From contig JAHEFR010000009.1 of the NCBI GenBank assembly GCA_024640085.1, positions 1-64,000 of the forward strand: a stretch of 64,000 nt of DNA, read 5' to 3'. This DNA comes from Gammaproteobacteria bacterium. Its GTDB lineage: Bacteria > Pseudomonadota > Gammaproteobacteria > Steroidobacterales > XN24. The position numbers were made by a program, and so were the translations under genes. Under the pieces are notes generated by a model. The model had not been told where the DNA came from, ran no database searches, and was given only the letters and a program-made list of their open reading frames with translations. Positions 1 to 63,709 of the stretch are shown here, one piece after another (positions within the stretch are counted from its first letter, which is position 1; every line of letters begins with the position of its first letter).

Positions 1-124
1 ACGCGTTACTCACCCGTCCGCCACTCGCCGCCAGGGAGCAAGCTCCCCGCGCTGCCGTTCGACTTGCATGTGTTAGGCATGCCGCCAGCGTTCAATCTGA
101 GCCAGGATCAAACTCTTCAGTTCA
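1..124 (-). rRNA. rrs: 16S ribosomal RNA, 5' end (partial)
   Basis: The complement of 97-116 is the universal bacterial 16S 5' primer site (AGAGTTTGATCCTGGCTCAG). The mature 5' end should lie about 7-8 bases upstream, near 124. The rest of the gene and presumably the remainder of the rrn operon lie beyond the left edge, transcribed leftward. The next stretch (1-96) reads as normal 16S helix 6/7 sequence. Only the extreme 5' end is present, so nothing finer than Bacteria can be read from it. Confidence 0.97.
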
Positions 125-21217: not shown

Positions 21218-21307
21218 CGTGCTGTCTCCCTGCTGAGGCCCGTCGATTCTAACCGTTGCCGATCGGCGGCATGCAGCTTGACACGCGCGCCGGCCGACAC
21301 CTAGAGT

Positions 21308-21525
21308 GCAGGTGACCGCATGGTGCTCCTCTCGCGGCGCGAGAGGACGACGGGAAGCCGGTGTTCCAAATGGAAATTCCGGCGCTGCCCCCGCAACGGT
21401 GATCGAGTAAAGGTCCCACCGCCGGTCCGCCTTCGCAAGGCGGCCGGAACCACTGCGCCCTGGCGCGGGAAGGTGGTGAGACCGAGGCCCCGCCTCGCTC
21501 GTCAGCCCGGAGACCGGCCCTGCGG
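21308..21525 (+). ncRNA. cobalamin (AdoCbl) riboswitch upstream of btuB
   Basis: Conserved parts are present in order: GGGAAGCCGGTG (from 21352), GCTGCCCCCGCAACGGT (21384-21400), a long variable stem, and the B12 box CAGCCCGGAGACCGGCC (21503-21519). It lies 120 bases ahead of the btuB start. The btuB Shine-Dalgarno (GGGGAGG, 21632-21638) follows pyrimidine-rich CTCTCACCCCTTCTCTCC (about 21570-21588) that could pair with it, so control of translation is the likely mode. No clear U-run terminator was seen before btuB. Confidence 0.93.
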
Positions 21526-21645
21526 CACCGGCGCCGGATCTGCGGAGGGCGGACCGCCAGTCTCAGGACTGCTCTCACCCCTTCTCTCCACCGGCTGTAT
21601 TTTGGCTTCCACGAGTGCGGGCGTGCGCTTGTGGGGAGGAAACGC

Positions 21646-58991: not shown

Positions 58992-59411
58992 CTATTCGAT
59001 CTCCAGGAGTTCCACGTCGAAGACGAGCGTCGCACCTGGCGGGATGACATTTCCTGCGCCACGATCGCCGTAGGCCATGTCCGGGGGGATTACCAGCCTG
59101 CGCTTGCCACCAACCTTCATCCCGGCGACCCCCTGGTCCCATCCGCGGATCACTCGACCTGCGCCCAGCGGGAAGCTGAACGGATCTCCCCGATCAACCG
59201 AGCTGTCAAACTTCTCGCCCTTCATCTCCTCGGCGTCGGCGTCGTAAAGCCACCCGGTGTAATGCACCACCACCACTTGCCCTGCCTCGGCCATTTCACC
59301 GGTCCCCTCGACGATATCCATGACCTGCAGCGACTCGACGCCGTCGGCCAGCAGGGGTGGCGCAAGCAGAAGCGCGGCCAGAAAACTCGCGAACAATCGC
59401 ATCGATGTCAT
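58992..59411 (-). CDS. FKBP-type peptidyl-prolyl isomerase (exported)
   Basis: The 139-residue protein has a signal peptide (about residues 1-22, LLLAPPLLA) followed by one FKBP domain: [42 protein letters not shown] and [31 protein letters not shown]. It should catalyse prolyl isomerisation in the periplasm. It lies between msrB and the TonB-like gene, same strand. Confidence 0.95.
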
Positions 59412-59480: not shown

Positions 59481-59888
59481 TCAGTCTTCGGCAGACTCAG
59501 AATCGAGGTCCAGGGCTGCCGAGTTGATACAGTACCTCAATCCCGTTGGTTTCGGCCCGTCGGGGAAGACGTGCCCCAGGTGCGCGTCGCAGTTGAAGCA
59601 TCGGACTTCCTCCCGGATCATGCCGTGGCTAACGTCCCGGCGAACCTGAACCCGATCCTCCGCCAGCGGCAACCAGAAACTCGGCCAGCCGGAGCCGGAA
59701 TCGTACTTGTGGTCGGAGCTGAAAAGTTCGATGCCGCAGCACACGCACCGGTAGACGCCATCCAGTTTGCAGTCCACGTAGGCACCGGAGAACGGTCTCT
59801 CGGTCCCTCCCCTCTGGGTGATCCGATGCTGCTCGTCTGTCAAATTCCGGCGCCGGTCGTCATCGGCCGGGGGTTTCCTGTGCTTCAT
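59481..59888 (-). CDS. msrB: peptide-methionine (R)-S-oxide reductase
   Basis: MsrB repairs oxidised methionine in proteins. The 135 residues contain the zinc cysteine pairs CVCC and CFNC, the substrate motif SGSGWPSFW, and the catalytic cysteine in RYCINSAAL. No signal peptide, so cytoplasmic. The ATG at 59888 follows GAGAGG at eight bases; the open frame to 60026 upstream is not conserved. Confidence 0.95.
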
Positions 59889-60112
59889 TGAGCCACCTCT
59901 CTTGTGGGCTGAAAATGCTAATCCGCCCGGTGGCGCCCGTCCACCGCCTTGGAAGACGGATGGCGCTGGCCAATGCGATATTCTGGGGGAACACGGGCAA
60001 TGGAGTCCGCAACGGGCACCCGGCAAATGGATAAGGGACGTCGGGGTGAGTCAGAGCCCGGCACCCACTGGGGCACCCGGAAACGGGCCCGGAAAGGAGG
60101 GTGCCGCCGGCG

Positions 60113-60346
60113 CTAGAAGTCGGAGGAGCGGCCGCCGCGAGCGAGGCCGACCAGATAAGGATCGAAGCAGGAGACTTCGTCCTCACGCCGGTTAACGCCG
60201 TCCCAGTCGTATGCGTCCAGCTCAACTGAAGGACTCGCGCCCGCGCTGACGGAGCGGCGTTGTCGAGCCAGATCTCCGAGATAGGGATCGCTGGATCCGG
60301 TGACCCTGGAGTCGCCGTCCGGCGCCGTGCGCGTACGTCTATCCAT
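60113..60346 (-). CDS. small protein with duplicated DPYLxxLAR motif, unknown function
   Basis: The 77-residue protein is not recognised. It has an internal duplication: SSDPYLGDLARQRRS near residues 18-32 and CFDPYLVGLARGGRS near the C-terminus, also visible at DNA level (GATCC-TATCT...GCTCG). Third codon positions are GC-rich as in real genes here. The ATG at 60346 has GAGG eight bases ahead; an ATG at 60361 is also possible. It is hydrophilic, with no signal or membrane helix. Neighbours are msrB downstream and a 47-codon membrane ORF upstream. Confidence 0.5.
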   Translation of the reverse strand: MDRRTRTAPDGDSRVTGSSDPYLGDLARQRRSVSAGASPSVELDAYDWDGVNRREDEVSCFDPYLVGLARGGRSSDF

Positions 60347-60458
60347 AACCGGAATCCTCATCAATCCTGCCTGGGACGATAGCCTCCACCCGCCGCCGAG
60401 ACCGTGCCCCAGTTCACAGATTCCGGAGCCGGATACGGAGTCGATCGGTGGGAATCCG

Positions 60459-60602
60459 TCAGACTGGCAGGAGCAGGGCCAGAAGCGTCACAGAGACAAG
60501 CCCCCCCTGGAGAGCCAGGCGGCGACAGTTGGCTCGTGCACCGTGCACAGCCAACCCGACGACTTCGTCGACCTCGTCCAGTAGCTGGATCAGTCTTTCC
60601 AC
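60459..60602 (-). CDS. 47-residue putative small membrane protein
   Basis: A short ORF starts with GTG, with GGAG six bases ahead. The N-terminal half is amphipathic and acidic (ERLIQLLDEVDEVVGLAVHG), followed by a basic turn (ARANCRRLALQGG) and a hydrophobic C-terminal segment (VSVTLLALLLPV) that could insert in the membrane. Codon use is GC3-rich. No family recognised. It lies between a DUF6544-like gene and the DPYL protein on the same strand. Could be a chance ORF; the good ribosome site and pattern argue otherwise. Confidence 0.45.
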   Translation of the reverse strand: MERLIQLLDEVDEVVGLAVHGARANCRRLALQGGLVSVTLLALLLPV

Positions 60603-60767: not shown

Positions 60768-61604
60768 TCACAGAAACCGTGCGTCCTCCACGGTGATGCG
60801 CATGAATTCCTCGGCCGCGTCGGTACCGTAACCCCACGCCGCAATCACCCGGGACGGTATCGTGTAGTCGCCGAATCTTGCCTCTTGCTCGACGCGGATA
60901 CCGAAAGGCATCAGACCGAAGCTCCTTGCCTCGCCGCCCTGGTGTCTCATCATGCTGACATCGACCAGGGCCCCGCTCTCGGCGACAGTGAGATTCAGGC
61001 TGGAGACCGCCGCCAGCCCAGGCAGACGGACTGTCGCCCGGTGCTCGTCACCCGGCTCCCAGGTCGCGCCCCGGGCCGGACAGAGGCAGGCAGGGAGCCA
61101 GATCGATTCGATGACCAGTCTGCCAACCGCCGATCTTGCGAACTCACCCCCGCGGATTCGCACCAGAGGCAGGATTCCGGAGAGGAAGAAATCGGAACCG
61201 GCATCGCCGTCGCAGAGGTACTCCGATCCCTCCGTATAAATCCGCCCGACGCCCTCGATCCGTGCCTGCCAGAGCAGACCGCGTTCCGGGCAGATCCGTT
61301 CCATGGCCTCGAACTTGAACCAGTCGCCGTCCGGACGGACGCGGATTTCTCCAATCAGGTGAAGGTCCACGGTCTTGGCCAGCGCCGCGCCTTCTGTGAT
61401 GGCGTGCCGGAGATATCGGGCAGCCGGGGGGGGTATCAGGACAGTCTCCCGGGAGCTGAACCGATCGCCGGATACGTCGGGCAAAGCCAGCCGATTGAAC
61501 ACCTGGCGGTGGCGAGCGATGACGCGGGCTCGCCCCTGCCTCAGCCAAACATAGGTCGAGAGCAGAATGACCGCGACGACCAGCAGGACCCAGAGCATCT
61601 CCAT
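60768..61604 (-). CDS. DUF6544/DUF6920-like membrane-anchored protein
   Basis: The 278-residue protein has an N-terminal membrane helix (LWVLLVVAVILLSTYVWL) and a beta-rich domain that reads like the DUF6544/6920 group: AARYLRHAITEGAAL, LIGEIRVRPDGDWFKFEAMERI, ARIEGVGRIY, VIESIWLPACL. Function unknown. It lies in a minus-strand run between small ORFs; the nearest upstream ORF stops 88 bases before its ATG. Confidence 0.7.
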   Translation of the reverse strand: MEMLWVLLVVAVILLSTYVWLRQGRARVIARHRQVFNRLALPDVSGDRFSSRETVLIPPPAARYLRHAITEGAALAKTVDLHLIGEIRVRPDGDWFKFEAMERICPERGLLWQARIEGVGRIYTEGSEYLCDGDAGSDFFLSGILPLVRIRGGEFARSAVGRLVIESIWLPACLCPARGATWEPGDEHRATVRLPGLAAVSSLNLTVAESGALVDVSMMRHQGGEARSFGLMPFGIRVEQEARFGDYTIPSRVIAAWGYGTDAAEEFMRITVEDARFL

Positions 61605-61692: not shown

Positions 61693-61878
61693 TCAGGAGT
61701 CCGATGTTTCCTGCTGGTGGGGCAGCGCGAGGTAGAAGCCTGAATTGGCGCCGGCTCTCTTGTGCTCCAGGCTTGAAGCCGCGATCGAGCGCGCCTTGCT
61801 CACCCATGTCCAGCGGTCCCTGGCCTGACCGGTGTCAAGCCTGTGACCGTCCGTCGTTCTTTCGCGATTCGCCTGCAT
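61693..61878 (-). CDS. 61-residue hypothetical protein
   Basis: The short ORF has GGGGAG nine bases before ATG. The product is hydrophilic, with RWTWVSKARSIAASSLEHKR in the middle and no signal. I do not recognise a family. It is 48 bases after the 80-residue ORF upstream and both are on the same strand, with good ribosome sites, so they may be cotranscribed. No similarity to the neighbours can be stated. Confidence 0.4.
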   Translation of the reverse strand: MQANRERTTDGHRLDTGQARDRWTWVSKARSIAASSLEHKRAGANSGFYLALPHQQETSDS

Positions 61879-61926: not shown

Positions 61927-62169
61927 TCAGTTGTCCTGCTCCCAGTCCGCCCTGACCCTGGCCGTCCAGGCCTGGTATCCACTCCATGTGTAAATCGATT
62001 CGGGCCCTTGCCTTCTGCTGACGTCTCGTTCCAACCGGCCGAGCCAACCACGGTAGGTTTCCCAACCTACTGCGGGGGAGGACAGGCGTTTCCGGGATTC
62101 GGATCGGCCCGATCCATTCCCGGCGGGCGGCTCGGATCCCTTCCCTCGCGACCGGCGGTCTCTTGGCAT
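61927..62169 (-). CDS. 80-residue hypothetical basic protein
   Basis: GGAGG lies five to six bases before the ATG (a very strong ribosome site). The protein has a basic, low-complexity first third (RDRRSRGKGSEPP), then a helix-prone, tryptophan/tyrosine-rich part (GWETYRGWLGRLERDV; YTWSGYQAWTARVRADWEQ). It might bind nucleic acid or another protein; no family recognised. A LacI-type palindrome lies 62 bases upstream. Confidence 0.5.
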   Translation of the reverse strand: MPRDRRSRGKGSEPPAGNGSGRSESRKRLSSPAVGWETYRGWLGRLERDVSRRQGPESIYTWSGYQAWTARVRADWEQDN

Positions 62170-62344: not shown

Positions 62345-63709
62345 TCATGCCACCACGCGGTAACAAGGAACGTAATGAGCGCCGGGCAGCCGCATCCGGC
62401 GCTGCGCCACGAAGGCTCTCAGCAGTCCGTCCAGCGCATCCATGATCACGGGTTCTCCGTGGATCTCGTACGGTCCATATTTTTCCACCGCCCGCACCCC
62501 CTGATCCTTGACGTTGCCCGTCACGATGCCTGAGAAAGCCTGCCGGAGGTTCGCAGCGAGCACATGAGATTCCAGGTCACCCCGCAGCTCCAGCAACGAC
62601 ATGGCCTCGTGACTCACCGGAAAGGGCTTCTGGAACAGAGGATCGATCAACAGTCGCCAGTTGAAGTAATAGGCATCACCAGTCTTGCGGCGATCCAGGC
62701 GGACTCGGGCCACGCCCTCGTAGACCTGCCTTGCCACGCGCTCGGGATCGCCGGTGATGATCCGGTAGCGATCGGCGGCCTCGTCCCCGATAGTGGCTCG
62801 CACAAACGTGTCCAGGGTTTCGAAATATTCCCGGGAGGACGACGGGCCGGTGAGCACCAGCGGCATCGGCATCCTGGCATTGGCCGGGTTGAGCAGTATG
62901 CCCAGCAGGAAAAGAAGCTCTTCCGCTGTCCCTACGCCACCGGGAAAGATGATGAATGCATGAGCTATCCGGGCGAAGGCTTCCAGCCGCTTTTCGATGT
63001 CCGGCATGATCACCAGCTCGTTGACGATCGGATTTGGCGCCTCCGCGGCAATGATGCCTGGCTCGGAGATGCCGACATAGCGCCCGTCCGTGATCCGCTG
63101 CTTGCCGTGACCGACAGCGGCGCCCTTCATCGGGCCTTTCATGGCGCCCGGCCCGCAGCCGGTGCAGACATCCAGACCACGAAGCCCCAGCTCGTATCCC
63201 ACGTCCTTCGAGTAGTCGTACTCCTCGCGACTGATGGCGTGGCCTCCCCAGCAGACGACCAGATTCGGGTCCACGCGCGGGCGCATGACCCCGGCGTTCC
63301 GGAGTATGTAAAAGACGGCGTTAGTAATTCCCGCCGTGCTGTCCGTGTCCAGGTGCCCCTGGATCTCAGTGCTGACATAGACCACGTCCCGGAGCACCGA
63401 GAACAGATGCTCGCGGATACCGCGTATCAGTTCGCCGTCTACGAAGGCCGAGGCCGGTGCGTTATGAAGCTTGAGCTTGAGCCCCCGCTCCTGTTGTAAC
63501 AGCTCCACCTCGAAGTCCTCGAAAGCGTCGTACACCTGTCGCGCGCTGTCGGTGTCTCCGCCGCAGTTGAGGACGGCCACGGCGCATCTCCGGAAGATCT
63601 CGTGCATGCCTCCATGGCCAGCATCCTTCAGCTTGCCGACTTCCAGCTGGGACAGCATGTCCAGACTACCGACGGGGGAGACGATGATGTCTTCGGTCAG
63701 TTTCTTCAT
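62345..63709 (-). CDS. ppnN: pyrimidine/purine nucleotide 5'-monophosphate nucleosidase
   Basis: This LOG-family enzyme (PpnN/YgdH) cleaves nucleoside monophosphates to base and ribose 5-phosphate; the E. coli enzyme is activated by (p)ppGpp. The 454 residues include the N-terminal PpnN domain (KLTEDIIVSPVGSLDMLSQ), LDVCTGCGPGAMKGPMKGA, and the Rossmann motif IFPGGVGTAEELLFLLG. The ATG at 63709 overlaps the amidase stop (ATGA). The frame is open to 63892 without conserved residues. Confidence 0.95.
   Translation of the reverse strand: MKKLTEDIIVSPVGSLDMLSQLEVGKLKDAGHGGMHEIFRRCAVAVLNCGGDTDSARQVYDAFEDFEVELLQQERGLKLKLHNAPASAFVDGELIRGIREHLFSVLRDVVYVSTEIQGHLDTDSTAGITNAVFYILRNAGVMRPRVDPNLVVCWGGHAISREEYDYSKDVGYELGLRGLDVCTGCGPGAMKGPMKGAAVGHGKQRITDGRYVGISEPGIIAAEAPNPIVNELVIMPDIEKRLEAFARIAHAFIIFPGGVGTAEELLFLLGILLNPANARMPMPLVLTGPSSSREYFETLDTFVRATIGDEAADRYRIITGDPERVARQVYEGVARVRLDRRKTGDAYYFNWRLLIDPLFQKPFPVSHEAMSLLELRGDLESHVLAANLRQAFSGIVTGNVKDQGVRAVEKYGPYEIHGEPVIMDALDGLLRAFVAQRRMRLPGAHYVPCYRVVA

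Follow-up and report, generated by a model that had tools for sequence, protein, structure and literature searches.

Gene D, a 77-residue reading frame on the minus strand of the 64,000-nucleotide stretch of DNA analysed here (the window), is, as judged by comparison with its relatives' genomes, a genuine and previously unnamed bacterial gene. Its product carries two copies of a short DPYL motif joined by a variable linker, an architecture that is well supported by the aligned homologues. D has been detected in just two related families of bacteria, and it represents a small new family of a known type, the motif-bearing microprotein.

Gene D and its locus

The frame opens with an ATG at 60346 on the minus strand, and its stop codon ends at 60113. 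The first-pass annotation, which gave no strand, had described a 77-residue product with a duplicated DPYLxxLAR motif, and both copies are indeed present (DPYLGDLARQRR and DPYLVGLARGGR). It had placed them about 45 residues apart; the repeat stands, and the actual spacing is 42. The reported likeness of the two copies at the DNA level amounts to 27 identical bases out of 39, and the proposed ribosome site corresponds to a GAGGA located 8 nt before the ATG. The alleged GC3 bias exists (GC by codon position, 0.68/0.56/0.71) but is weaker than in neighbouring genes: GC3 is 0.75-0.77 in msrB, the FKBP gene and the DUF6544 gene versus 0.71 in D, in a region with a GC content of 0.65. The features of the locus are as follows.

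58992..59411, minus strand: FKBP-type peptidyl-prolyl isomerase
59481..59891, minus strand: msrB
60113..60346, minus strand: gene D, 77-aa two-motif DPYL microprotein (from the ORF reading, homologues and dN/dS)
60128..60163, minus strand: motif copy 2, DPYLVGLARGGR, residues 62-73, predicted helix 63-70
60254..60289, minus strand: motif copy 1, DPYLGDLARQRR, residues 20-31, predicted helix 21-31
60355..60359, minus strand: GAGGA, Shine-Dalgarno-like, 8 nt upstream of the ATG of D (read directly)
60459..60602, minus strand: gene C, 47 aa, acidic N-terminus MERLIQLLDEVDEV followed by a hydrophobic stretch
60768..61604, minus strand: DUF6544 protein
61693..61878, minus strand: gene B, conserved small protein (RDRWTWVSKAR..AA)
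61927..62169, minus strand: gene A, conserved small protein with an internal pair, WxxYRxWL ... GYxxWAxxVRxxW
62345..63709, minus strand: ppnN, the upstream landmark of the locus, start codon unsettled

The best internal 12-residue match in D has a BLOSUM62 score of 34. When the 83-residue frame (60364-60113) was shuffled 1000 times, a single shuffle reached this value. D ranks only 6th by internal-repeat score among the 199 mechanically called ORFs of 60-130 aa in the window; hence, the repeat alone is weak proof of a gene, and it is conservation that supplies the proof. Five plus-strand ORFs of at least 40 aa overlap D; three of them were compared with the loci of four relatives, and none of these three had a match at E <= 0.1. 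A promoter scan returned no promoter, and terminator-like sites numbered 4 against 1.6 expected.

Several families share the unnamed small genes A, B and C between ppnN and htpG-msrB-fkpA. Gene A, which several families of the order carry either close to msrB or following ppnN, was seen by a loose pattern or by eye in 13 of 40 msrB-centred regions, some of which stop before ppnN; two of the 13 belong to g13, the genus of the second D-bearing family (f10). It was detected in 2 of 194 genomes of a class sample, both within the order. AlphaFold2 predicts two helices for its product, with a pLDDT near 88 for the C-terminal helix. Proteins A and D are alike in being small and in having two short helical motifs with aromatic residues; kinship between them was rejected (hhalign E 0.29, probability 0.2%). 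No scanned copy of A, B or C matched a family model above its cut-off (for B, Pfam was searched with two copies taken from other genomes and NCBIfam with one, and the window copy was run against PHROGs only), and one B copy has a DUF5797 match below cut-off. The DUF6544 protein is present in all seven genomes of the window's family (f1) and was not seen in 20 regions of other families. Matches to ppnN occur on plasmids at 56-60% identity among the matches listed, the best 8 of 23 records (Pseudomonas, Aeromonas and Pseudoalteromonas), which points to the Gammaproteobacteria. Elsewhere in the window, a cobalamin riboswitch at 21304-21536 (plus strand) lies above the Rfam gathering score, and the 5' end of a 16S rRNA gene at 1-123 (minus strand) is cut by the window edge, which is also the contig edge.

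Conservation in two families

The msrB region of relatives had been suggested as a place to look for conservation of D, and a lack of homologues and a dN/dS near 1 had been named as grounds for dismissal. Neither was observed, homologues being present in the msrB region of relatives. A single-sequence search of 97 genomes recovered copies in G001, which belongs to the same genus as the window genome (61% identity, E 2.9e-24), and in G004 (51%, 1.2e-16), plus weak matches, including a copy in G006 at 38% identity. Matches with E values of 0.003-1 were dropped unless motif and synteny agreed; those kept were G006, G028, G003 and G040. By profile search, D is present in five of the seven f1 genomes (G000, G001, G003, G004 and G006, the window genome included). 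The G003 copy was weak in this search (E 0.0147) and was accepted because of its two DPYLVGLAR copies and its position. The five copies share a neighbourhood of ppnN, A, B, the DUF6544 gene, C, D, msrB and fkpA, except that G006 is without msrB there and G004 without an FKBP match there; in G003, C and D are separated by about 4.6 kb in which other genes lie. The profile search did not find D anywhere in G002 and G005, nor was C found at their locus, from which both must be missing, since just 113 and 77 bases, respectively, lie between the DUF6544 and FKBP matches. The dN/dS was 0.25 between the window copy and G001 (dN 0.407, dS 1.63), the dS of the remaining f1 pairs being high or saturated. 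The sole locus returned by a scan of genome contigs (L031; 42% identity over 48 residues) was put down to chance, as it has VTGSSDPY in common with D but neither the DPYLxxL motif nor a similar neighbourhood.

The second family was reached through a match in G040 (E 0.0046) when the f1 profile was run over genomes of the order. In four g13 genomes (G040, G028, G015 and G051), ORFs ending in DPYL or DPYP motifs lie directly after a gene C homologue and about 1 kb before msrB. With these four copies added to the profile, a search of 396 genomes of the order returned ten at E < 1e-15, five from f1 and five from g13; the g13 copies scored between 3e-29 and 7e-16 with a profile that includes four of them, the fifth (G060) being outside it. 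Alignments built from f1 only and from g13 only matched each other in hhalign with a probability of 90% (E 1.5e-6, 53 columns), with both motifs in register. Purifying selection is also evident in g13, with dN/dS values of 0.26-0.61 among the five copies. The g13 proteins have a first motif without DP (HSYRGDLVGQ or close), the second motif reads DPYPAGLLRK in G051, G060 has DSYLVELIKK, and the genes start with GTG and have no clear Shine-Dalgarno sequence.

In class-wide samples, the f1 profile matched D in 1 of 369 genomes and the profile of both families in 1 of 274, in each case only in G000; no more than 14-28 first-look candidates were scored for each genome in the order and class searches, which may therefore have overlooked weak copies. 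Five order-search matches at E 0.014-0.018 (G120, G247, G250, G361 and G367) were taken as chance from their table values, and inspection of the locus in G335, a match from the f1-profile search of the order, revealed no D-like ORF. Gene C has a wider distribution. It is present in all ten D-bearing genomes and, outside f1 and f10, in nine regions of families f2, f3, f6 and f7, in genomes where D was not found; three of these nine regions (L144, L149 and L154) were recovered by a C profile built without them. In these four families C was seen ahead of htpG, and in f1 and f10 ahead of D. A C-like ORF in f16 (L104, from a pattern search) was discounted for lack of support from the C profile.

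Motif architecture and candidate functions

The motif core is [P/S]Y-x-x-x-L, usually DPYLxxLxR, the linker spans about 26-36 residues, and the two tyrosines are 38-48 residues apart in all ten copies. Pairwise identity over all f1 pairs is 0.64 and 0.65 in the motifs, 0.50 in the N-terminus and 0.27 in the linker; the corresponding g13 values are 0.84 and 0.70 for the ends and 0.43 for the linker. Between the window copy and G001, dN is 0.20 in the motifs and 0.90 in the linker, and dN/dS in g13 is lower in the ends than in the linker for 9 of 10 pairs (the exception, G051-G060, has 0.30 versus 0.28). D carries two copies of a conserved short motif, the first degenerate in g13, and by identity, dN and dN/dS these motifs are constrained while the linker is free to drift. 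AlphaFold2, run on the 10-sequence alignment, predicted helices only at residues 21-31 and 63-70 (mean pLDDT 56.8, pTM 0.21). This model is in keeping with a flexible chain that bears two helical motifs for recognition; however, it does not prove disorder, because confidence is low throughout and the alignment has just 10 rows, and a composition index gave D no more disorder than MsrB (0.12 versus 0.13).

The first-pass annotation had suggested that the repeated motif could be a binding module for one partner. This suggestion is borne out in part: a two-site binder would be expected to keep both motifs while its linker drifts, and the weak model with two helices also suits it; the two sites may serve one partner. 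We would give an even chance to D being a mostly disordered bivalent linear-motif adaptor, a reading in which disorder in the cell, binding and bivalence are all putative. Two copies of one short amphipathic-helix motif would be joined by the drifting linker, the two helices would fold as they dock into like pockets, and one D chain would bridge two copies, or a dimer, of its partner. The likeliest partner would be the membrane microprotein C, encoded upstream of D, because every D-bearing genome has C; we offer this pairing as a tentative proposal that may well be wrong. D would be at best an accessory of C, since C occurs without D in the nine regions of other families. The two sites may also not bind the same pocket, given the loss of DP from the first g13 motif and the altered motifs of G051 and G060. 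The separation of C and D in G003 and the GTG starts without a clear Shine-Dalgarno sequence in g13 also count against an adaptor. An envelope or proteostasis setting may be envisaged for D.

It is also conceivable, though rather unlikely, that D self-associates, its two amphipathic helices packing together or onto a second D chain in a small dimer or oligomer, so that no linear-motif partner would be involved. The hydrophobic Y, L and L positions of the two predicted helices are consistent with such packing, and helical hairpins tolerate variation in their linkers. However, this linker varies in composition as well as length, and the pTM and mean pLDDT indicate no confident fold, in a single-chain model that cannot address dimers. 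C and D might also form a toxin-antitoxin-like pair, with the hydrophobic microprotein C as the toxin and D as its soluble antidote. The genes are small and adjoining, one product being membrane and the other soluble, and both are missing from the locus in G002 and G005, but four other families in which no D was found retain C in this position, unlike an addictive toxin, so that C and D are not strictly paired. Neither Pfam nor NCBIfam offered a match, and we consider such a pair scarcely credible. ParA proteins usually have disordered partners, and D might be the partner or regulator of a ParA-type ATPase, comparable to the N-termini of ParB or to disordered partners of the McdB type. In g13 (G015, G028, G040 and G051) and in G008, a divergently oriented ParA gene is located between A and B, and in G072 one sits between msrB and ppnN. 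The best NCBIfam match of the g13/G008 ATPase (e.g., L057:6426-7139, minus strand) is NF041546, below cut-off. Speaking against a partnership, D is present in G000 and G001, whose sole ParA at E <= 1e-25 is just 38 and 35% identical, respectively, and is encoded elsewhere. No f1 ParA was located at the D locus, and G008 has the ParA with no D found; D is thus neither consistently encoded nor co-occurring with this ATPase, and we regard the partnership as improbable.

The position of D invites comparison with htpG, which encodes Hsp90. D occupies the C-to-msrB interval where relatives carry htpG: the gene order is C, htpG, msrB in L138, L141, L145 and L154, and in 23 of 36 htpG-bearing genomes no more than 4 kb separates htpG from msrB (two result tables compared by hand). 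A copy of htpG is seen at L148:3952-5829 (minus strand). Of 59 genomes searched, 23 gave no htpG at E <= 1e-50, among them all seven of f1 and all four tested of g13 (the D-bearing ones other than G060); some of these assemblies are only 79-81% complete (G001, G040 and G051). Nine of these eleven f1 and g13 genomes carry D; that is, htpG was found in none of the nine D-bearing genomes tested. Neither gene was found in twelve further genomes (f13, f14, f16 and G011), and D is therefore not a necessary companion of htpG loss; two D families are too few to show that the losses were independent. Descent of D from HtpG was rejected (with one HtpG as the target, blastp of ten D proteins gave nothing better than E 0.65, over 7 residues). 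One might still view D as a young or decaying gene of little function that settled where htpG was lost, as its distribution is narrow, it sits at the htpG place of relatives and it is missing from two of seven f1 genomes. Purifying selection in both families and the retention of two motifs between them argue against this, as does the lack of similarity to the HtpG tested, and we think it quite unlikely. A bolder proposal is that A, B, C and D make up a system of small proteins round ppnN, msrB and fkpA, and that D, in two families without Hsp90, takes over a client-holding or scaffolding task served by htpG in relatives, acting as a two-handed disordered clamp docked on the membrane microprotein C. 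We hold this to be very improbable. Were D to go together with the absence of Hsp90 in independent losses, a role in proteostasis would be indicated.

Comparison with known systems

The window copy of D matched no family at E <= 1 in Pfam, NCBIfam and PHROGs, and one g13 copy had no match in Pfam and NCBIfam. No PDB sequence matched the D profile at E <= 1, and no plasmid match was found for D. The listings returned by literature searches on htpG with msrB, htpG loss, Hsp90 distribution, the DPYL motif and linear-motif microproteins contained nothing on D or its locus. D offers a microprotein family that is defined and open to testing, that has its motif in duplicate and for which a candidate partner can be named; its locus exposes three further unnamed small genes common to several families of the order.

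Among known systems, HtpG resembles D in genomic position, between C and msrB, and differs in size (625 versus 77 aa) and in the absence of detected sequence similarity. McdB, a partner protein of a ParA ATPase, is like D in being small and possibly disordered, and a ParA gene lies at the D locus in the second family; D differs from such partners in that two genomes with D, G000 and G001, have no close copy of the g13 ParA. D also resembles, in a general way, the disordered linear-motif microproteins (reviewed in PMC13276856): like these, it has fewer than 100 residues, a low-confidence model and short conserved motifs in a drifting chain. In contrast to them, the D family stands outside Pfam, NCBIfam and PHROGs, and its motif is present twice.
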